Shown here one piece after another: positions 18,227-28,395 of a stretch of DNA of 64,000 bases. Made by a program: the position numbers and the translations under genes. The first letter of the stretch is position 1, and every line of letters starts with the position of its first letter. Source of the DNA: Terriglobus sp. TAA 43 (GTDB lineage Bacteria > Acidobacteriota > Terriglobia > Terriglobales > Acidobacteriaceae); assembly GCF_000800015.1 (NCBI RefSeq), contig NZ_JUGR01000003.1:186001-250000 (forward strand). Direction: 5' to 3'. The notes beneath the pieces were generated by a model. That model worked only from the letters and a program-made list of their open reading frames with translations. It had not been told where the DNA came from and did no database searches.

Positions 18227-18306
18227 GTGCGTGCCTTTCTTCCGCAGTGAGGCCGTTTCCTCATGCGCGGAAGCAATATCTGTACGGAAGCAGGGAGCGC
18301 AAGAAC

Positions 18307-19152
18307 ATGGGCTCAGTCGCACGGGTTGCACCACCCGATAACGCACACCGCAAGGGCGTGAAGCCGCTGCGCGCCGGTCAGGGACACTCGTTCCTGCTGC
18401 GCAAACTGCACTCGCTCACCGGCATCGTCCCCATTGGCGCGTTCCTGATCGAGCACATCATCTCGAACCTTGAGATCGTGCACGGCCCCGTCGCCTACGC
18501 CAAGCAGGTTCTCTTCCTCAACAGCCTGCCGCTCGTGCGCGTGCTGGAGTGGGCCTTCATCTTTATTCCGTTGCTCTTCCACGCGGGCTACGGCGTCTTC
18601 ATCGCCGTCCGCGGACGCTCCAACGTGAATGTCTATCCGTGGGCCGGCAACTGGATGTACGTGATGCAGCGTGTCTCGGGCATCATTGCCCTGCTCTACA
18701 TCATCCAGCACCTCTGGTTCCAGCGCTTCTCCGGCGTCAGCCTGCCGGAACATCCGGGCCTCGCGTACTGGAAGGTGCAGTACGAACTTTCCAACCCGTG
18801 GATGGTTGCGGTGTACGTCATCGGCATGATCGCCACCTGCTTCCACTTCTCGTACGGCATCTGGCTCTTCTGCGCCAAGTGGGGCATCACCCCCGGCGAC
18901 GACGCACGCCGCAAGCTCGGCTATGCCACCACCGCATTTGGCGTCATCCTGTGCGGTCTGGGTCTGTGGAGCATCGCAGCCATCGTGTCAGCTCCCATGG
19001 TTCCGGCAGTGGAAGTGATCCCGGCACCCGCAGACGACTCAGCACCAGCAGTAGTGCCCACGTATCAGGTTCCAGCCGTGCAGCAGCAACAGTACGACAG
19101 CAACGGCCAACCGCTCCAGACAAGTCCACTCCCGTCTGGAGCCAATCAATAA
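18307..19152 (+). CDS. sdhC: Succinate dehydrogenase cytochrome b subunit SdhC
   Basis: 281 residues from ATG 18307, preceded by AGGGAG. The first gene of the sdh operon encodes the membrane anchor of the diheme cytochrome b558 type (Bacillus-like, one large subunit instead of SdhC plus SdhD). About five membrane spans carry the expected histidines: RKLHSLTGIVPIGAFLIEHI, LLFHAGYGVFIA, IALLYIIQHLWFQRF and CFHFSYGIWLFC. After the last span comes a 45-residue Pro/Gln/Ala-rich tail (PAPADDSAPAVVPTYQVPAV), which is longer than usual and of unknown use. The next small gene begins on the stop codon (TAATG). Confidence 0.92.
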   Translation: MGSVARVAPPDNAHRKGVKPLRAGQGHSFLLRKLHSLTGIVPIGAFLIEHIISNLEIVHGPVAYAKQVLFLNSLPLVRVLEWAFIFIPLLFHAGYGVFIAVRGRSNVNVYPWAGNWMYVMQRVSGIIALLYIIQHLWFQRFSGVSLPEHPGLAYWKVQYELSNPWMVAVYVIGMIATCFHFSYGIWLFCAKWGITPGDDARRKLGYATTAFGVILCGLGLWSIAAIVSAPMVPAVEVIPAPADDSAPAVVPTYQVPAVQQQQYDSNGQPLQTSPLPSGANQ

Positions 19153-19427
19153 TGATCGTCGCTCTGATCGTCTTCTTAATTGGCGGTTGGACTACGGCCT
19201 GGTCTCATTTCGCAATGCTGCAACATGTCAATTTGCTATCCACACAAACCGACTCTATTCCCGAGTTACGAAATAGTGGATGGCAAGTGTGGCAAAGATA
19301 TAAAACGCTGGCCCCGAAAGGTAAGTGGAGTGTAGTGATGGCGACCGGTATCACTGCCCAACTTATCGGATTCGTAGGTTTGATTTTGACGTTTAGCGCT
19401 CAGCCCGTTTCGGGCGGCGGCAGATAG
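19152..19427 (+). CDS. Small two-TM protein inside the sdh operon (91 residues)
   Basis: Begins in the overlap TAATG with sdhC and ends 12 bases before sdhA, so it must be cotranscribed and is probably translationally coupled. Residues 1-23 (MIVALIVFLIGGWTTAWSHF) form one hydrophobic span and a second lies near the end (VVMATGITAQLIGFVGLILTF); the linker between is polar and aromatic, with QVWQRYKTLAPKGKW. No family recognised. Its position, where other complexes carry a second anchor subunit, suggests an accessory or stabilising role in the membrane arm of complex II (inference). Confidence 0.75.
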   Translation: MIVALIVFLIGGWTTAWSHFAMLQHVNLLSTQTDSIPELRNSGWQVWQRYKTLAPKGKWSVVMATGITAQLIGFVGLILTFSAQPVSGGGR

Positions 19428-19439
19428 GAAAGCCGAACT

Positions 19440-21218
19440 ATGGCAACAACACCACGCATCATCGTCGTAGGCGGCGGTCTCGCCGGACTCTCCGCGGTCA
19501 TGAAGATCGCAGAAGCCGGCGGCAAGGTCGACCTCTTCTCCATCGTCCCGGTTAAGCGCTCGCACTCCGTCTGCGCGCAGGGCGGCATCAACGCCGCCAA
19601 GAACCTCAAGGGCGAAGGCGACAACGTCGACAAGCACTTTGACGACACTGTCTACGGTGGCGACTTCCTCGCCAACCAGACGCCCGTAAAGAACATGACG
19701 GCGCAGGGCCCGGCCATCATTGATCTGCTTGATCGCATGGGCGTCCCGTTCAATCGCACGCCCGAAGGTCTGCTCGACTTCCGTCGCTTCGGCGGCACGC
19801 TCTATCACCGCACCGCCTTCGCCGGAGCCACCACCGGCCAGCAGCTTCTTTACGCGCTGGACGAACAGGTGCGCCGCTACGAATCCGAAGGCAAGGTCAC
19901 CAAGTACGAGGGCTGGGAGTTCCTCTCCGCCGTCATCGACAGCACCGGCGTATGCCGTGGCATCTGCGCCATGGACCTGCGCACCATGGAAGTCCGCACC
20001 TTCCCCGCCGACGCCATCATCATCTGCACCGGCGGCAACGGAGCCATCTTCGGCAAGTCCACCAACTCCGTCGTATGCACCGGCTCCGCGCAGTCCGCGC
20101 TGTATCAGCAGGGCGCGTATTACTCCAACGGCGAGTTCATCCAGGTGCACCCCACCGCCATCCCTGGTGAAGATAAGTTGCGCCTCATGTCGGAATCCGC
20201 ACGTGGCGAAGGTGGCCGCGTCTGGGTACCGCGCAAGAAGGGCGACCCGCGCCCGGCCAAGACCATCCCCGAGGCCGATCGCTACTACTTCCTCGAAGAG
20301 AAGTATCCGAAATACGGCAACCTCGTACCGCGCGATATCGCCACCCGCGAGATTCACAAGATTGTCTACGAGCAGGATCTGGGCATCGACGGCCAGCCGA
20401 TGGTCTACCTCGACGTGTCGCACATCGACCGCGCCACGCTCGAAAAGAAGATTGAAGGCATCCTCGAAATCTACGAGAAGTTCGTCGGCGAAGACCCGCA
20501 CGAAGTTCCCATGAAGATCTTCCCCGGCGTCCACTACACCATGGGCGGCCTCTGGGTTGACTTCAACCAGCAGACCAACATCCCCGGCATCTTCGCCGCG
20601 GGTGAAGCGGACTATTCCATCCACGGCGCAAACCGCCTCGGTGCAAACTCGCTGCTCTCCTGCATCTACGGTGGCTTCGTCGCCGGACCGCAGGCGATGA
20701 CCTACGCGAAGAGCCTGCCCACGCAGACCGGCGACGGCGGCCACGCAGCCGAAAAGGTTCGCCAGATGGAGTACAACAACATCCTTCTGCAGAACCAGGG
20801 CACGGAGAATCCGTTCAAGCTCTGGCGCGAACTCGGCGACACCATGACGCGTCACGCCACCATCGTTCGCTACAACGCGGGCCTGAAGGAAGCGGACGCC
20901 AAGATCGTCGAACTGCTCGAGCGCTACCGCAATATCAATCTGACGGACAAGAGCCAGTGGGCCAACACATCGTTCGCCTTCTCCCGTCAGCTCTACAACA
21001 TGCTGCAACTCGCACGCGTCATCGTGCAGGGCGCAGAGAAGCGTGACGAAAGCCGCGGCGCACACTACAAGCCGGACTTCCCGGATCGCAACGACGAGCA
21101 GTTCCTGAAGTCCACCATGGCCGCATACGACGCAAAGTCAGACGCACCGGTCATCACCTACGAAGAAGTCGACACGCAGTGGATCAAACCACGCCCACGC
21201 GTCTACACCAGTTCCTAG
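19440..21218 (+). CDS. sdhA: Succinate dehydrogenase flavoprotein subunit SdhA
   Basis: 592 residues. FAD-binding IIVVGGGLAGLSAVMKIAEA, the flavinylation histidine region KRSHSVCAQGGINAA, the substrate-binding segment YHRTAFAGATTGQQLLY, the catalytic-arginine region GAYYSNGEFIQVHPTAIPG with RGEGGRVW, HYTMGGLWVDFN, and the C-terminal FAD loop ANRLGANSLLSCIYGG are all present. It oxidises succinate to fumarate on the cytoplasmic face and passes electrons to SdhB. It lies between two small membrane-protein genes in the sdh cluster. Confidence 0.96.
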   Translation: MATTPRIIVVGGGLAGLSAVMKIAEAGGKVDLFSIVPVKRSHSVCAQGGINAAKNLKGEGDNVDKHFDDTVYGGDFLANQTPVKNMTAQGPAIIDLLDRMGVPFNRTPEGLLDFRRFGGTLYHRTAFAGATTGQQLLYALDEQVRRYESEGKVTKYEGWEFLSAVIDSTGVCRGICAMDLRTMEVRTFPADAIIICTGGNGAIFGKSTNSVVCTGSAQSALYQQGAYYSNGEFIQVHPTAIPGEDKLRLMSESARGEGGRVWVPRKKGDPRPAKTIPEADRYYFLEEKYPKYGNLVPRDIATREIHKIVYEQDLGIDGQPMVYLDVSHIDRATLEKKIEGILEIYEKFVGEDPHEVPMKIFPGVHYTMGGLWVDFNQQTNIPGIFAAGEADYSIHGANRLGANSLLSCIYGGFVAGPQAMTYAKSLPTQTGDGGHAAEKVRQMEYNNILLQNQGTENPFKLWRELGDTMTRHATIVRYNAGLKEADAKIVELLERYRNINLTDKSQWANTSFAFSRQLYNMLQLARVIVQGAEKRDESRGAHYKPDFPDRNDEQFLKSTMAAYDAKSDAPVITYEEVDTQWIKPRPRVYTSS

Positions 21219-21234
21219 AGGCATCCAACTGGAG

Positions 21235-21441
21235 ATGAACCGTTACTTCATCTTCGCGGTAGTAGCAGCAATCATCGCAGCCGTCGCTTACGGAGGGTTT
21301 CTCTTCCTCGGCGAGTGGATTGACGGCAGGCGACAGGCAATACGTGACAAGGGATTGCATCCGGTCACCACATCGGATGGCAATGTCGAAGCCCGGGAAT
21401 ATCGGGCGAACAAGGATGAAACGGACCAACCGTCCGAGTAA
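21235..21441 (+). CDS. Small single-TM protein between sdhA and sdhB (68 residues)
   Basis: ATG 21235 directly follows CTGGAG, 16 bases after sdhA. One N-terminal span (about residues 4-26, FIFAVVAAIIAAVAYGGFLF) is followed by a highly charged tail GRRQAIRDKG ... EYRANKDETDQPSE that would lie in the cytoplasm or periplasm. No family recognised. Position in the sdh operon is the only functional clue. Confidence 0.68.
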   Translation: MNRYFIFAVVAAIIAAVAYGGFLFLGEWIDGRRQAIRDKGLHPVTTSDGNVEAREYRANKDETDQPSE

Positions 21442-21516
21442 CAACAACCTCGGGCAACCAGGGTTGAGCAACACAAGCACGACACCGAGCCACAAGGTCC
21501 GGGAGCGAGAGGAAAC

Positions 21517-22320
21517 ATGGCAAAGAAGTCAGCACATGTCGAAAAGCCAAAGCCCTACACGGGCTCGACCTTCAAGGTGTCCATCAAGCGGCAGGCGTCG
21601 CCGAATGCACCGGCCCACACGGAAGAATTCACGCTTCCCTATCGCTCGGGCCTGAACATCACCAGCGTGCTGGTCGACATCGCGGCGAACCCCATCAATG
21701 CGACGGGCGCCACCACCACCGCCATCGCCTACGACTCCAACTGCCTCGAAGAGATCTGCGGCTCCTGCGCCATGCTCATCAATGGCAAAGCGCGCATGGC
21801 CTGCTCCGCTCTGGTGGACGCGCTGCTGCATGAGAACGGCAAGGGCGAAATTACTCTCGCGCCGCTCAGCAAGTTCCCCGTCGTGCGCGACCTCGCCGTG
21901 GACCGCAGCGTTCTCTTTGAGAACCTGAAGGCCGTTAAGGCATGGGTTCCCATCGACGGCACCTACGACCTCGGCGCTGGCCCCAAGCAGTTCCCGCAGA
22001 TTCAGGAAGAGCGTTACCCGCTCTCCAACTGCATCTCCTGCACCATCTGCATGGAAGTCTGCCCGCAGTTCAACGACTCCACAAACTTCGTTGGCGCTGC
22101 CACCATCGCACAGGCCCGCCTCTTCAACCTCGACCCCTCGGGCGCGGTGCTGAAGGAAGATCGTCTACGCGCTCTCGCAGGCGACGGCGGTGTGCAGGAA
22201 TGCGGCTACGCACAAAACTGCGTACAGGCCTGCCCCAAGCAGCTACCGCTCACCGAAGCCATCAGCGACATGGGCCGCGACGTAGCCATCCAGCAGGTCA
22301 AGGACTTCTTCACTCGTTAA
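21517..22320 (+). CDS. sdhB: Succinate dehydrogenase iron-sulfur subunit SdhB
   Basis: 267 residues, RBS GAGGAAAC. Three cluster motifs are visible: [2Fe-2S] SNCLEEICGSCAMLINGKAR plus a following Cys, [4Fe-4S] CISCTICMEVCP, and [3Fe-4S] CGYAQNCVQACPKQLPLTEAI. The subunit carries electrons from SdhA to the quinone site at the membrane. About 30 extra residues precede the ferredoxin domain (KPKPYTGSTFKVSIKRQ). A small membrane-protein gene starts 3 bases after its stop. Confidence 0.95.
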   Translation: MAKKSAHVEKPKPYTGSTFKVSIKRQASPNAPAHTEEFTLPYRSGLNITSVLVDIAANPINATGATTTAIAYDSNCLEEICGSCAMLINGKARMACSALVDALLHENGKGEITLAPLSKFPVVRDLAVDRSVLFENLKAVKAWVPIDGTYDLGAGPKQFPQIQEERYPLSNCISCTICMEVCPQFNDSTNFVGAATIAQARLFNLDPSGAVLKEDRLRALAGDGGVQECGYAQNCVQACPKQLPLTEAISDMGRDVAIQQVKDFFTR

Positions 22321-22610: not shown

Positions 22611-24053
22611 CTAAATATTTTCGACAGGAAGATGCACGGTGAACTCCGTCTTCCCCGGTTCCGATTCCAGCGTCAGACGGCCGCCATAACCTTCCAGCAC
22701 GCGACGCACAATCCCAAGTCCAAGTCCCGTTCCCACTCCCGCAGCCTTCGTCGTGAAGAACGGATCAAAGATGCGATCACGATCTTCCGCGGAAATACCG
22801 GAACCGTTGTCGCCAATCGTCACCTGAATCTCATCCCCAACACGAGCGGTCTTGATCGTGATCAATCCACCCGTCTGCGGCACAGCATCAATCGCGTTAT
22901 CCAGCAGATTCGTCCACACCTGGTTCAAGCCGCTGCACACGCAGTGCACCTTCGGCATCTTCGAACCAAACTCCTTGTGGATGCTGACGTTCTTCTCGCG
23001 CAGCTTGTGCTTCATCATCACGGCCGTGGCATGGATGCTTTCGTTCACATCCACATCCTGCTCACCGGTCTGCCCTTCATGCGCATAGCTCTTCACAGAC
23101 TGTGCCAGCTCCGTGACGCGAGCTACTGATTCTTCAACCAGCGTAACCATCTGCATCGACGAGGCACTTGCCTCAAGCCATTCCAGTGGAGCAGTCAACT
23201 CGCTGCTCTGGAACACATCCGCAAGACAATCCAGATCCTGCGTGCTGATGCCGCTCGCCACCATCACAGGCGCAATGTCCCACGCCTTTGCAATCGAGTG
23301 CGAATCCAGCCAGTCGCCCATCTCTTCTTCTGCGTCCGATTGCTCCAGCGAGCTCAGGCAAACATCCTTCTTCACCGCCAGTGCACGTTCCTGCAAAGCG
23401 GTAAGGCAAGCACGCTGTTCTTCTGTATGTCCGTGCTCTGAGAACGAACGCGCAATCTCATGCATGTGGCGAAGATTATCGCGGAGTTGAGAAGCCGCAC
23501 GACGAGCCGCAGCACCCGGGTTATTCAACTCATGCATCAATCCCGCAGTCATGGTGCCCAGCATGGCCAGCTTTGCTTGCTGAGTCTGCTGTGTCTGCAT
23601 GCCCATCAGCCGCATACGCAGCTCGCCCAAAATTACGGAGCGCAGATGCGGGCAGTGCGACATACCGGCCCAGAACGATTCTTCGTCCAAACGCAATCCA
23701 CGAATGTCTGTCTGTGCAATCACCGTGACGTTGGAATGCATGCCGGTCAGCAGTGGCACTTCACCCATGAATGCGGGCGCTTCCATGATCTTGCTGAAGA
23801 AGTAGTTGCCCTGCTCATCCTTGCGGGAAACATGGGCTCGGCCTTCGGTAAAGATCGTGAAGTAGTGCAGGTCATCTTCCTGGTCCACGATCTTTGTGCC
23901 CGCAGCGACATACATATCCTGCGCCACCGCCACCAGGCAAGCCAACTCTTCTTCCGGTACGTTGTCACCAAATGGCTTCACACGCTGCAGATCATCAAGA
24001 GCTTTGCGTTGCCATTCGACACTGTTTGCAAGGCAATCCGTCGTCGTTGCCAT
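22611..24053 (-). CDS. Sensor histidine kinase with N-terminal cNMP-binding (CRP-like) domain
   Basis: 480 residues. Residues about 28-135 form a cyclic-nucleotide-binding beta roll ([39 protein letters not shown]). The dimerisation/phosphotransfer helix has H174 in [16 protein letters not shown], and the C-terminal HATPase has the N box [16 protein letters not shown]1 DNGSGIS and G2 [13 protein letters not shown]. There is no membrane segment, so it is a soluble sensor; the ligand may be a cyclic nucleotide or another small molecule. It follows the receiver/reductase gene after 2 bases, so the two are one operon, making that fusion its likely phosphorylation partner (inference). Confidence 0.9.
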
Positions 24054-24055
24054 AG

Positions 24056-25699
24056 TTAGAACCCCGCCAGATACTGATGCACAAACTGAATTGCAATGGA
24101 GCCTTCACCAACCGCTGAGGCTGCACGCTTTACCGAACCATGCCGCACATCACCCGCCACAAAAATGCCGGGGACACTGGTCTCCAGCAGATAAGGATTG
24201 CGATCCCCCATGCGATCTACCCCCACGCGCTTCAGGTCTGGCCCAGCCAATACAAAGCCACGATCGTCACACGCCACTTCCTTCGGCAGCCATTCCGTCT
24301 TCGGTGCAGCGCCAATGAAGATAAACACGGAAGTCGCCGCGCGATTATCCGTGCCATTTGGAGTGCGCAGTTCAATGCCCTGCAGATGCTCCGTGCCGCA
24401 GAAGCGCGTGATCTCAGTTCCCGTCTCGACCGTAATGTTCGGAGTCCCCGCAATCTGGTCTATCAGGTACTGCGACATGCTCTGCGCCAATCCCTTGCCC
24501 CGCACCAGCATCGTCACCTTCCGTGCGTAACGGGCAAAGTTCATCGCAGCCTGTCCGGCCGAGTTCGCGCCGCCCACCACAAAGACCTCTTCGTCCTTGC
24601 ATGACTGCGCTTCACTCTGCGCCGCGCCGTAGTAAACACCAGCGCCAACCAACTCGTCGCCACCGGGCACATCCAGCTTGCACCAGCTCACACCAGTCGC
24701 CAGCAACACAGCCGAGCAACTCACATCGCGACCGTCGCCCATCGTCACAAAGCGGTACTGGTCCTCCACGCGAATCTTCGTCACGCGCTGCGTCAGAAAC
24801 TCCGCACCCAACCGCTGCGCCTGCACAAATCCACGACGCGCCAGCTCGTCGCCGCTCACGCCATCCGGAAAACCCAGATAGTTTTCAATGCGCGAGCTCG
24901 ATCCAGCCTGTCCGCCAACCGCATCTGGCTCTACCACCAGCGTGCGCAAACCCTCTGAAGCGCCATACACTGCACCAGCCAAACCAGCAGGCCCGGCGCC
25001 CACCACCACCAGGTCGTAGTGCTCTTTCTCTGCCTGCACGCGCAGGCCAATCTTTCCTGCCAACTCCATCTGAGTCGGCTGCACCGCTGAAGTGCCGTCG
25101 GAGAACACCACCACAGGCAATTTCGCATCATCCAGCCCGCGCGACTTCAACAGTTCCAGCGCCTCAGGCTGCGAGTCCGGATTCAGCCAGCGAAAAGAAA
25201 CATGATTGCGTGAAAGAAAATCGCGCACCGCATGATCCTTCGATCCCCAGCGCGTCCCCACCACCTGCAATCCCTCATAAGGTGGCTTGTATCCCTGGTG
25301 CCAACTGAACAGCAGGTCATCCAGCACCGGGTACAACTTGTCCTCCGGCGGGTCCCACGGCTTGTTCAGGTAGTAGTGGATGCGTGCCGTGTTGATCGCA
25401 CGAATCGCAGCTTCCGTATCGGCATACGCCGTTAACAAAACACGTTTTGCATCGGGATAGAGCCCCATTGCCTGGCTCAGGAAGTCCACGCCAGTCATGC
25501 CTGGCATACGCTGATCGCTCAGGAACAACGCCACGGCGTCCCCGCGATTCTTTAACTGATCGCACGTATCCAGCGCAGCCTGCCCGGAAGCGGCGCGCAC
25601 AATGCGATATTCCTGCGCATACTTGCGGCGCAGATCGCCAACGACGGCCTCTAAAACGCTAACGTCGTCATCCACTGCGAACAAAATCGGTCGTGCCAT
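24056..25699 (-). CDS. Receiver/thioredoxin-reductase-like fusion lacking the CxxC
   Basis: 547 residues from ATG 25699, preceded by AGGAAGG. Residues 1-125 are a CheY-like receiver with the acid patch D10-D12, phosphoacceptor D62 and Lys113. Residues about 142-220 look like a glutaredoxin-like fold without cysteines (LQVVGTRWGSKDHAVRDFL). From about 228 to the end is a TrxB-type flavoprotein: VVVGAGPAGLAGAVYG, GGQAGSSSRIENYLGFP, NADPH motif VFVVGGANSAGQAA and GIFVAGDVRHGS. Where TrxB has CATC, this protein reads GVYYGAAQ (354-361), so the redox disulfide is missing. The fold may pass electrons from NAD(P)H and FAD to another partner under control of phosphorylation. Operon with the kinase. 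Confidence 0.9.
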   Translation of the reverse strand: MARPILFAVDDDVSVLEAVVGDLRRKYAQEYRIVRAASGQAALDTCDQLKNRGDAVALFLSDQRMPGMTGVDFLSQAMGLYPDAKRVLLTAYADTEAAIRAINTARIHYYLNKPWDPPEDKLYPVLDDLLFSWHQGYKPPYEGLQVVGTRWGSKDHAVRDFLSRNHVSFRWLNPDSQPEALELLKSRGLDDAKLPVVVFSDGTSAVQPTQMELAGKIGLRVQAEKEHYDLVVVGAGPAGLAGAVYGASEGLRTLVVEPDAVGGQAGSSSRIENYLGFPDGVSGDELARRGFVQAQRLGAEFLTQRVTKIRVEDQYRFVTMGDGRDVSCSAVLLATGVSWCKLDVPGGDELVGAGVYYGAAQSEAQSCKDEEVFVVGGANSAGQAAMNFARYARKVTMLVRGKGLAQSMSQYLIDQIAGTPNITVETGTEITRFCGTEHLQGIELRTPNGTDNRAATSVFIFIGAAPKTEWLPKEVACDDRGFVLAGPDLKRVGVDRMGDRNPYLLETSVPGIFVAGDVRHGSVKRAASAVGEGSIAIQFVHQYLAGF

Positions 25700-25894
25700 G
25701 TGCCTTCCTGTCCCACAGCCGGCGGTGTCTCTTCGCCTGCCGTGCTTTAGATTCCCGAATAACGGCCCCTGATGCAATTATTTCGCGTCGAACGGCATAA
25801 GGTGTTGCATACTCATGGCAACACAGTTTTTAGCTTCTCTGGCACGAAAAATTCCCCCTCGCTGTTCCATTTTTCGAGACTCTCCGGTTACGCC

Positions 25895-26539
25895 ATGATT
25901 CGAATTCTGCTTGCTGACAACCAGGCCATCTTCCGCTCCGGGATGGCACGTGTCCTCTCTTCACAGGACGACATGACCGTTCTGGGCCAATGTGGGGCCC
26001 CGGACGAACTTCTTCCCCTCATTGCCCCCGCGCGCAACGCCATTCTTCTACTCGCCGCCTCCCTTGAAGCAGACATCGATAAGGCCTTCGCAGCAGCTTC
26101 TGCCAACGGTGTCCGGATCATCCTGCTTCATGACAATGGCAACGAGCCGGAAGCCGCCGTCTCCCGCAGGATGGATGGTCTCCTCTCACGCCACGTCTCC
26201 ACAGACGATCTGCTGCACTGCGTACGTCGCGTCTTCAATGGAGAACGCGCCGTCAAAGCACCGGTCGCTGAGGCAGACGACAGCGTCGGCCGCCGTATCC
26301 GCGACGCACTCACCACGCGCGAGTTGCAGATCGTGGGTTTCATCGTGCAGGGCTGGAAGAACCGGCAGATCGCCGACGAGATTGGAACCAAGGAGCAGGT
26401 CGTTAAGAACTACCTCCGCTCCATCTACGACAAGACAGGAGCCAGCGATCGCCTGGAGCTGGCGCTCTTCACGCTGCATCACCGCCCACTTGCAGAGGCC
26501 GCAGCAAAAGCAGCCGCTCCCGCTGCCGTCACCGTCTGA
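25895..26539 (+). CDS. LuxR-family response regulator with degenerate receiver
   Basis: 214 residues from ATG 25895. An N-terminal receiver-like domain (RILLADNQAIFRSGM) lacks the phosphoacceptor: the position expected to be Asp reads ILLLAAS, with Leu53. The C-terminal LuxR helix-turn-helix is intact (LTTRELQIVGFIVQGWKNRQIADEIGTKEQVVKNYLRSIYDKTG). It is probably an atypical regulator not driven by Asp phosphorylation. It is divergent from the receiver/reductase and kinase genes across about 195 bases, so it may regulate them (inference). An upstream in-frame start at 25772 would overlap the divergent promoter and is unlikely. Confidence 0.85.
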   Translation: MIRILLADNQAIFRSGMARVLSSQDDMTVLGQCGAPDELLPLIAPARNAILLLAASLEADIDKAFAAASANGVRIILLHDNGNEPEAAVSRRMDGLLSRHVSTDDLLHCVRRVFNGERAVKAPVAEADDSVGRRIRDALTTRELQIVGFIVQGWKNRQIADEIGTKEQVVKNYLRSIYDKTGASDRLELALFTLHHRPLAEAAAKAAAPAAVTV

Positions 26540-26578: not shown

Positions 26579-27406
26579 TCAATCCAATTCTGGTTTCTTT
26601 GCTGCTTTCACAATGACCACAGGCACATCGCCTTCATCCTTCACCAGCTTCAGCCCTAGCTCCTGTCGCACTACGTCCAGAAGCCCAGGGACCGTCGCAT
26701 CCGGCGATATCCCCATACCGTTGTCTGGAGCAAACTGCAGTCTGAAACTGAAGAAGCCGGGCAACCCTGTTGTATCGATAACAACACGATGTCCAACCTC
26801 TGCACGCCCCGAAAGAATCTTCGCGATATCTTCCATCGACGCGCCGGAGACTTCCATTGTCACCAATGTGGAATTCCCATTTGATGAAACATCCCTGCCG
26901 CCCGGGGGGCGTCCATCTGGCCCCACTGGCGTAGGCTTCAACCCCTGCTCAATCACGTCATCTGAAACACGTTTTATGGTGAAGCGAGGCATCCGCTGTG
27001 TGCTCGTCTCCACCAGAAGTCCAAATCGTTCCGCAAGCATGGACTGCACCATCTTGAGGTATTCGTCACCGCTCTCTTCGGCTTTCAACTTACCAAGCCG
27101 CTCAAACTCTTGTTCTGACGATTTGGCAGTGATGTCATAGTGATCCTTCTTTGCCCATTCCGGGGCATTCAGGATCTGCATCGGCGACTTCAGGTCATAG
27201 GCGCGAAGGATAAGGTCCATCAACGGATAATTCTCGATATTCGTAATATTTCTGGTCGAATGCCATCCCCTTCCTCCGCGCTCGTCTGGCTTCGCTGGCT
27301 TAACCAGGGTCACTTCAAAGCTCACAGGTTTTACATCCTGCGCCCAAACCGCCACGGATGGCATCGCCACCATACTCAAAGCCACCGCAAGAACCGTTCT
27401 CCGCAC
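26579..27406 (-). CDS. TIGR03435 family secreted protein (copy 1)
   Basis: 275 residues from GTG 27406, preceded by GGAGGGG, which gives a signal peptide (RRTVLAVALSMVAMPSVAVW) parallel to that of the next copy. Family traits: [63 protein letters not shown], and the terminal [27 protein letters not shown]03435 proteins are numerous in soil acidobacteria and have no proven function. The frame runs to 27466 without similarity. The adjacent gene is a close paralog. Confidence 0.88.
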   Translation of the reverse strand: MRRTVLAVALSMVAMPSVAVWAQDVKPVSFEVTLVKPAKPDERGGRGWHSTRNITNIENYPLMDLILRAYDLKSPMQILNAPEWAKKDHYDITAKSSEQEFERLGKLKAEESGDEYLKMVQSMLAERFGLLVETSTQRMPRFTIKRVSDDVIEQGLKPTPVGPDGRPPGGRDVSSNGNSTLVTMEVSGASMEDIAKILSGRAEVGHRVVIDTTGLPGFFSFRLQFAPDNGMGISPDATVPGLLDVVRQELGLKLVKDEGDVPVVIVKAAKKPELD

Positions 27407-27478
27407 AACCCCTCCACAACGCAACAATGCAAATAGCCGCTGGTTCAAGATACGCACACAAACCACGCACCTGAATGC

Positions 27479-28294
27479 TCAATCCAGCTCAGGCTTTTTC
27501 ACTGACTCCACAATCACCACAGGCACGTCCCCATCCGTCTTCACCAGCTTCAATCCAAGCTCCTGCCGCACCGCGTCCGACAGCCCCGGCAGCGTCGCAT
27601 CCGGTGCCACGCCTGTTCCGTTGTCCGGCGCATAATCCATCGTGAAGCGATATGCCCCCGGTGTACTGGTGCGATCCACAACAGGCCGACCGCCCATCTC
27701 ATAGCGTCCTGAGAGCAAACGGGCAATCTCCTCCATCGAAACGCCCTGCGCATCCCAATGACCTCCATTGCGATTGGAATGATGTCCGCCGATCGCCCGG
27801 CCATCCTTGCCCACAGGGACGGACTGAAGCTTCGAGCCCAACGTCGTTGCAGAGACGCGCTCAAGGGCATACATCGGCATCTTCCGTGTGCCCGGCCGCA
27901 CCCTCAGGCCAAAGCGCTCCGCCAACATACCCTTCAACAAGTCGCTGAACTCCTTATCGCGTTCATCCGCGCTCAACGTGTTCAACCGATGAAACTCTTC
28001 CGCATCCACCTTCGCCGTCACGTCAAACCGCTCATCCTTGAGCCAATCAGGAGCATCGACCACCTGCGACACAGTACTCAATCCATAGGCATTGCGGATC
28101 AGCTTGATGACTGGATAGTTCTGAATAACCGTAGTGCCCTCGTTCGAATCCCAGTCCTCGCCATCTGCATCCGGCTTGGCAGGCTTCACCACCGTCACTT
28201 CAAAACTCGGCGATTTCGCCACCTGCGCCTCGACGCCGACGGAAGCCAACCCAATCGTCATCATCAAAGCCCGGGTCAAAACAATTCTTCGCAT
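27479..28294 (-). CDS. TIGR03435 family secreted protein (copy 2)
   Basis: 271 residues from ATG 28294, preceded by GGGGAG. Signal peptide [20 protein letters not shown], then the same plan as copy 1: [63 protein letters not shown] and [22 protein letters not shown]. The two genes are head-to-tail with 72 bases between, so they are a tandem duplication. Function unknown. Confidence 0.88.
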
Positions 28295-28395
28295 AAACTC
28301 CCCACCTACCAGACGATACGAACGGGCAAGACAATCGTTCCCCACTTACTACGTACGCATCCATTCCACCGGACGCAGCGATCTCGCAGCTCAAG

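Follow-up and report, generated by a model that had tools for sequence, protein, structure and literature searches.

The window analysed here, a 64,000-nucleotide stretch of Terriglobus sp. TAA 43 (contig NZ_JUGR01000003.1, positions 186,001 to 250,000; genome G000, 4.95 Mb), contains two same-strand genes separated by 2 bp between the stop of the first and the start of the second. The first encodes a receiver domain fused to a thioredoxin reductase (TrxR)-like flavoprotein, and the second encodes a histidine kinase with a cyclic nucleotide monophosphate (cNMP)-binding-type domain. We propose, at about an even chance of being right, that the pair forms a cytoplasmic two-component system that acts through a Cys-free flavoprotein rather than by DNA binding, the flavoprotein being switched through phosphorylation by the cNMP-domain kinase. 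Because the same gene pair recurs in very different phyla, it is probably a real signalling system, and the locus appears to be more than a chance arrangement, since its residue pattern and its gene pair are both kept in distant relatives. An earlier note on this DNA had described the kinase, the receiver/TrxR fusion, and a divergent LuxR-type regulator, all of which are present. The nearest named relative here is Terriglobus roseus DSM 18391, with a fusion identity of 85%.

The central observation is that both Cys pairs expected of such a protein are gone. In a MAFFT alignment of 155 distinct relatives, 128 were of receiver type (the window included), meaning that the match to the window protein begins before residue 15, and 27 were without a receiver; the CATC-bearing relatives L180 and L181 were excluded from the latter, and a gap at a Cys place was scored as Cys lacking. 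CxxC was found in 0/155 at the glutaredoxin-like place and in 0/155 at the TrxR place, which bears out, across homologues, the disulfide loss that the earlier note had read from YGAAQ at the CATC place. The counterpart of CATC in the window fusion is Y357-G-A-A-Q-S362, the family being one residue longer than TrxR there, and CATC faces either G358-Q361 (the earlier placing) or A359-S362 (MAFFT), with Cys absent in both placings. With both pairs lost, the core is hardly a classical disulfide reductase. A replacement pair was sought in the Cys columns of the 155 rows and rejected: only C367 is common (114/128 receiver-type rows and 15/27 others), and it has no conserved partner, so the alternative Cys pair that the earlier note had named as a way back to classical activity was not seen. 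The remainder of the site is retained. The FAD (flavin adenine dinucleotide) motifs of the family (G234, G236, G239, Q264, G516, and D517), together with E363, R400, and R525, are each kept in at least 127/128 receiver-type rows and in 27/27 of the others. MAFFT places E363 opposite the Asp of CATC-D, which in TrxR is the acid-base catalyst.

Between the receiver and the flavoprotein lies a glutaredoxin-like domain, a point absent from the earlier note. The best match of profile A3 (21 diverse members) was the M. tuberculosis glutaredoxin Rv3198.1 (2lqo; E 6.8e-10), whose WCGYC aligns with w-s-p-e-t of the profile. Pfam Glutaredoxin was matched at E<=1 by 14 of the 21 members, with a best value of 3.9e-6; the window copy alone gave 0.093, under the Pfam cut-off. 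The domain thus resembles glutaredoxins by profile (A3 against 2lqo) and departs from them by its CxxC, kept in none of the 155 rows. The window fusion reads W-G-S-K-D at the place of W-C-P-D-C in L180; CxxS was counted in the window only, where the place is G-S-K-D. Given the glutaredoxin-like match, the fusion is therefore composed of a receiver, a Cys-free glutaredoxin-like domain, and a CxxC-free TrxR-like domain. The receiver itself is complete, as the earlier note had concluded from D62 and K113: the window fusion has the signature residues D10/D11/D12, D62, T90, and K113, and across the 128 receiver-type rows, D10 is kept in 128 and D11, D62, T90, and K113 in 127 each.

The AlphaFold2 model of the fusion (mean predicted local distance difference test [pLDDT] 85.8, predicted template modelling score [pTM] 0.68; pLDDT <50 at residues 136-142 and 266-276) has a predicted TrxR-type fold for FAD and reduced nicotinamide adenine dinucleotide (phosphate), NAD(P)H. 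TrxRs rank first in its VIA-align comparison, with 3r9u at Z 34.9 and 1.8 Å over 304 residues. The model lies closer to 5mh4, labelled flavin-reducing (Z 34.6, 2.2 Å), than to 5mjk, labelled flavin-oxidising (Z 29.6, 8.2 Å). In the flavin-reducing state of TrxR, the nicotinamide faces the flavin, and the closer fit to that state offers weak evidence, from a predicted model, that would suit direct electron transfer.

The operon partner is, as the earlier note had it, a soluble kinase with a cNMP (CRP-like) sensor. Its Pfam matches include cNMP_binding (39.1 bits against a cut-off of 27.5) and HATPase_c (91.7 bits against 26.4); neither a membrane domain nor HisKA is among them. A long helical dimerisation part contains H174. 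This His is conserved in 127/127 aligned kinases, as is G417, and N386 and D415 are each kept in 126/127. Both the cNMP and the ATPase domain were found in 10/10 kinases scanned, from five phyla, and the top Foldseek matches of the window kinase model (AlphaFold2; mean pLDDT 86.1, pTM 0.59) are histidine kinases. The window's genome has a second cNMP-type kinase (L010; G000:C1:1573846-1575228), 31% identical to that of the window.

Linkage between the kinase and the receiver was counted over 127 distinct receiver fusions, the window's copies L001 and L009 being left out, with a kinase called at >=80 bits to the window's kinase and with split or contig-cut frames included; lineages outside the Acidobacteriota were sampled via plasmid records only. 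A kinase adjoins 121/127 receiver fusions (114 downstream and 7 upstream), in five phyla, and 1/27 non-receiver relatives (L161). The functional link drawn in the earlier note is supported by this difference, and the two genes do co-occur, a lack of which that note had said would count against it. Of the six fusions without a counted neighbour, three are truncated by the end of a contig, and the other three (L080, L129, and L163) have no kinase at that spacing. The over-long frame of L155 was scored as adjacent, and L080 was scored "none". L163, which is 39% identical and sits on a long branch, is the sole receiver fusion without D62, T90, and K113, and its locus has no kinase. On plasmid records, the pair was found in Deinococcus, Gloeothece, Nostoc, Streptomyces, Nocardia, Tsukamurella, Nonomuraea, Paraburkholderia, and Caballeronia. 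Near the pair in Deinococcus aetherius and Nostoc sp. C052 (L126, L127) stands a gene for low temperature requirement protein A.

In the mechanism that we propose, the kinase would sense a soluble cue via its cNMP-type domain and autophosphorylate at H174, and the phosphate would pass to D62 of the fusion. The phosphorylated receiver would then alter its contact with the glutaredoxin-like/TrxR-like core, and this would shift either the NAD(P)H-FAD site or a binding surface of the core from one state to another. The core might be a phosphorylation-gated NAD(P)H:acceptor reductase, in which flavin electrons would go straight to a small molecule or a partner, or it might be a redox-responsive docking protein; we lean towards the acceptor reductase. 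The genes, their domains, residue conservation, and linkage are observed directly; phosphotransfer, gating, flavin binding and chemistry, and a target are what we infer. Control by phosphorylation appears well supported by the linkage, and electron flow from NAD(P)H to FAD appears plausible.

Several observations weigh against this mechanism. The pairing of E363 with the Asp of CATC-D depends on where a one-residue gap is placed, because the family has one extra residue there. In 121/128 receiver-type rows, Ala takes the place of the central Gly of the NAD(P)H loop (Gly in 25/27 others), and this GGA for GGG could lower nucleotide binding. The conformation that AlphaFold chose is weak evidence. 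Exceptions to the linkage also exist: L080 has a shortened, 408-aa kinase frame 154 bp off, a transposase separates fusion and kinase in L129, and L161 retains a kinase beside a copy whose receiver is gone except for its C-terminal end. Finally, the coupling is one-sided: such kinases are also found on their own, namely, L182 and L184, plasmid kinases with no fusion within 4 kb (the two such loci fetched), and L010, whose fetched stretch of 4.4 kb contains no fusion.

The Cys-free state probably arose from a two-pair relay. L180 and L181, glutaredoxin-TrxR fusions of Acidobacteriota that retain both pairs (WCPDC or WCGDC, plus CATC), are the nearest rows outside the Cys-free family in an unrooted 81-row tree. 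There, support of 100/99 separates 78 Cys-free rows from a set made up of L180, L181, and the TrxR of the window's genome. Because these nearest outside relatives retain both Cys pairs, both were probably lost at the base of the Cys-free group, a direction of change suggested by sequence comparison. The ancestral relay would have run from NADPH to FAD, to CATC, and on to CPDC; after the loss of both pairs, the core would have retained the FAD motifs, the NAD(P)H fold, R400, and the acidic residue beside the CATC place. A single origin of the receiver fusion is neither established nor contradicted by this tree, which takes three receiver-label changes and has deep forks that are not resolved. 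A cNMP domain stands in front of the core in 5/6 non-receiver relatives scanned, L136 having none. L002, a non-receiver relative in the window's genome that by eye is of the cNMP-domain form, reads YAATQAEAQDC at the CxxC place. One row, L053, from a record titled as a Rhodanobacteraceae metagenome-assembled genome, falls within the Acidobacteriaceae copies and is probably a mis-binned contig.

The divergent LuxR/NarL-type gene lies outside the core system, since it is found beside closer relatives only. With a call at >=60 bits within 900 bp, it was present in 75/79 and 30/30 loci of closer relatives (counts that share genomes, some genomes being present twice), in 0/20 loci of other Acidobacteriota, and in 0/10 plasmid loci, and the part given to it in the earlier note is accordingly weak. 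L143 and L146, more distant copies in genomes of the window's family, are also without it. Its one Pfam match above cut-off is the GerE helix-turn-helix, residues 138-192. The degenerate receiver that the same note saw in Leu53 is kept in relatives, the phosphoacceptor place being F, V, L, A, I, or Y in 92/93 rows. The gene may regulate the operon locally. When 92 distinct intergenic sequences were compared for common k-mers and dyads, no shared operator emerged: the commonest 8-mer occurred in 28/92, a frequency that kinship could explain, and the commonest dyad occurred in 5/92.

Information might also flow in the opposite direction, which we regard as unlikely. The FAD/NAD(P)H module would then be a sensor, the fusion serving as an input or a phosphate sink, and the flavin redox state would act through the receiver to shift the kinase-phosphatase balance, with the real output being another regulator, e.g., the LuxR protein in this lineage. 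Such an arrangement would fit Paraburkholderia and Caballeronia (L131, L133), where one receiver fusion is flanked by kinases on both sides, as well as the degenerate receiver of the neighbouring regulator in the close group, and Cys loss suits a sensor as well as it suits an enzyme. Yet the cNMP domain carried by most non-receiver cores that were scanned (five of six) fits an N-terminal control input, 26/27 non-receiver relatives have no adjacent kinase, and loci beyond the close group yielded no LuxR gene. A dead-enzyme scaffold, in which FAD would serve for stability only, without reduction, and phosphorylation would control a protein-protein contact, is very unlikely in our view: the loss of both Cys pairs and the GGA that most receiver-type members have for GGG speak for it, but E363, R400, and R525 are kept (127/128 and 27/27) beyond what a scaffold should need. 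That the protein is an ordinary thioredoxin-disulfide reductase with another Cys pair is extremely unlikely. One relative is so annotated in PLSDB, but there is no second conserved Cys, and the window fusion scores 204.3 bits against the NCBIfam model TIGR01292, below its cut-off of 343.45.

A further alternative, quite unlikely in our view, draws on a UBP-type zinc finger. The core would be an ion-transport subunit docking on the UBP zinc finger, which would be a small protein in some cases and the tail of a Kef-like cation/proton antiporter in others. Efflux would be switched according to the phosphorylation and redox state of the core, in the way that KefF acts on KefC. According to the excerpted text of PMC10224563, KefC needs KefF, a flavin mononucleotide (FMN) quinone reductase, to be fully active, and a KefC-KefF fusion construct coordinates zinc ions where the two proteins meet. 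Directly after the kinase, a UBP gene is present in Streptomyces, Tsukamurella, Nocardia, L158, and L159, and UBP genes also adjoin receiver-free forms of the core. In two relatives, antiporters with Na_H_Exchanger and TrkA_N domains and a UBP tail adjoin the receiver-fusion operon (L094:2637-4772 and L148:500-2563). Among 396 Acidobacteriota genomes, the core (E<=1e-60) was found in 70 (including G015 and G368, whose core has CATC), UBP was found in 85, and both were found in 56. Outside the window's family, UBP is commoner with the core, occurring in 21/34 core-bearing genomes (G015 and G368 included) versus 27/318 genomes, kinship being ignored in this comparison. Against this reading, UBP occurs in just 7/30 distant receiver-fusion loci, and for the close group, in which short loci are common, none is listed. 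In the ten UBP neighbourhoods examined with the antiporter query, the window's genome among them, the zinc finger was matched and the antiporter part was not; in the window's genome, the UBP gene (G000:C1:3026586-3026780) is located away from this locus. In Deinococcus sp. KNUC1210, a UBP match lies under a gene annotated as a cation:proton antiporter. We regard the UBP protein as a possible occasional third partner, a lead rather than a result. The broader idea that Cys-free glutaredoxin-TrxR flavoswitches, set by phosphorylation or by a cNMP domain, act via UBP and sometimes gate Kef-like antiporters is speculative, and we would be surprised if it held in full.

Our preferred reading remains the kinase-controlled flavoprotein, whose coordinates are given in Table 1 with those of the neighbouring regulator. 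The 5' ends of the listed open reading frames (25777 and 25772) are overlong, and the starts supported by homologues are 25699 for the fusion and 25895 for the LuxR gene. Succinate dehydrogenase genes lie nearby (18247-22320) and were dropped as a candidate conserved link: SdhB was seen in no fetched locus except that of the window's own genome (L009), many flanks being short. On the minus strand at 26579-28345, two adjoining open reading frames resemble each other.

Table 1. Features of the kinase/receiver-fusion locus, in window coordinates.
Feature	Position	Strand	Basis or detail
cNMP-domain histidine kinase, soluble, 480 aa	22611-24053	-	Pfam, alignment
HATPase_c of kinase, residues 375-478	~22620-22931		Pfam
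H174 of kinase	23532-23534
cNMP_binding of kinase, residues 48-129	~23667-23912		Pfam
Receiver/glutaredoxin-like/TrxR-like fusion, 547 aa	24056-25699	-	ATG at 25699
TrxR-like FAD/NAD(P)H domain, residues 227-546	24062-25021	-	Pyr_redox_2, 121.5 bits
E363, directly after the lost-CATC place	24611-24613	-
Lost-CATC place, G358-A-A-Q-S362	24614-24628	-	Alignment
Glutaredoxin-like domain, residues ~140-227	25019-25282	-	Profile match
Receiver domain, residues 7-118	25346-25681	-	Pfam Response_reg, 49.6 bits, cut-off 30.2
K113 of receiver	25361-25363	-
D62 of receiver	25514-25516	-
Divergent intergenic region, 195 bp, fusion versus LuxR gene	25700-25894
LuxR/NarL-type regulator, 214 aa	25895-26539	+	ATG at 25895
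L53 of LuxR protein, phosphoacceptor place of receiver-like part	26051-26053

If the proposed reading is correct, a two-component system would control a flavoprotein directly, bypassing transcription, and a whole thiol relay would have been repurposed through the loss of both Cys pairs with the flavin site kept; should the UBP/Kef connection hold, two-component signalling would be tied to ion efflux via the NAD(P)H/flavin state. With a small, operon-like gene pair that encodes soluble proteins, the question is open to bench testing, and the Cys-bearing sisters L180 and L181 provide a before-and-after comparison. Family members are filed in PLSDB under names that include FAD-dependent oxidoreductase and cyclic nucleotide-binding domain-containing thioredoxin-disulfide reductase, yet 0/155 keep the Cys pair essential to disulfide reduction. 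The named family invoked in the earlier note, "fused response regulator/thioredoxin reductase", did not appear among the best 25 NCBIfam matches or in the PLSDB annotation seen. No study of the fusion was found among the literature matches listed, earlier mention in output-domain reviews being possible, and it is not treated in the excerpted text of PMC8945050, which reviews the thiol reductases of Deinococcus.

The known systems closest to the fusion each share one part of its design. L180 and L181 have the same order of glutaredoxin-like and TrxR parts and are tree neighbours of the Cys-free rows, but they keep WC(P/G)DC and CATC, whereas the window family has neither and, in most members, carries an N-terminal receiver or cNMP domain. 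The TrxR-like ferredoxin/flavodoxin reductases (FNRs) have a C-terminal part that supplies the FAD-stacking residue of the other monomer. This part may be absent from the fusion, which ends 14-17 residues past G533 in 125/128 rows. What these FNRs share with the fusion is a TrxR fold without CxxC, and they pass electrons directly from flavin to acceptor, as described in the excerpt of PMC10294844; unlike them, the fusion carries receiver and glutaredoxin-like domains.

AhpF likewise has an extra N-terminal part, of thioredoxin fold, before its TrxR module, and AhpF structures ranked fourth and seventh in Foldseek. Both AhpF parts contain redox Cys, according to the portion of PMC8945050 consulted, whereas the window fusion is without either pair, and AhpF-type pairs occurred in 0/155 relatives at both the N-terminal and the TrxR place. 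Response regulators with enzymatic output resemble the fusion in joining a receiver to a metabolic-type enzyme, and the excerpted text of PMC5847659 mentions, without detail, a receiver with thioredoxin reductase for unfinished archaeal metagenome sequences; that text describes neither the double CxxC loss nor a glutaredoxin-like domain nor a cNMP kinase partner. Of the Kef ancillary flavoproteins KefF and KefG, KefF is a soluble NAD(P)H flavoprotein that gates an antiporter of the KTN/TrkA_N type, again going by the excerpt of PMC10224563. It differs from the window fusion in being FMN-bearing and quinone-reductase-like, and the antiporter link in our family consists of the UBP fusions in two relatives only.

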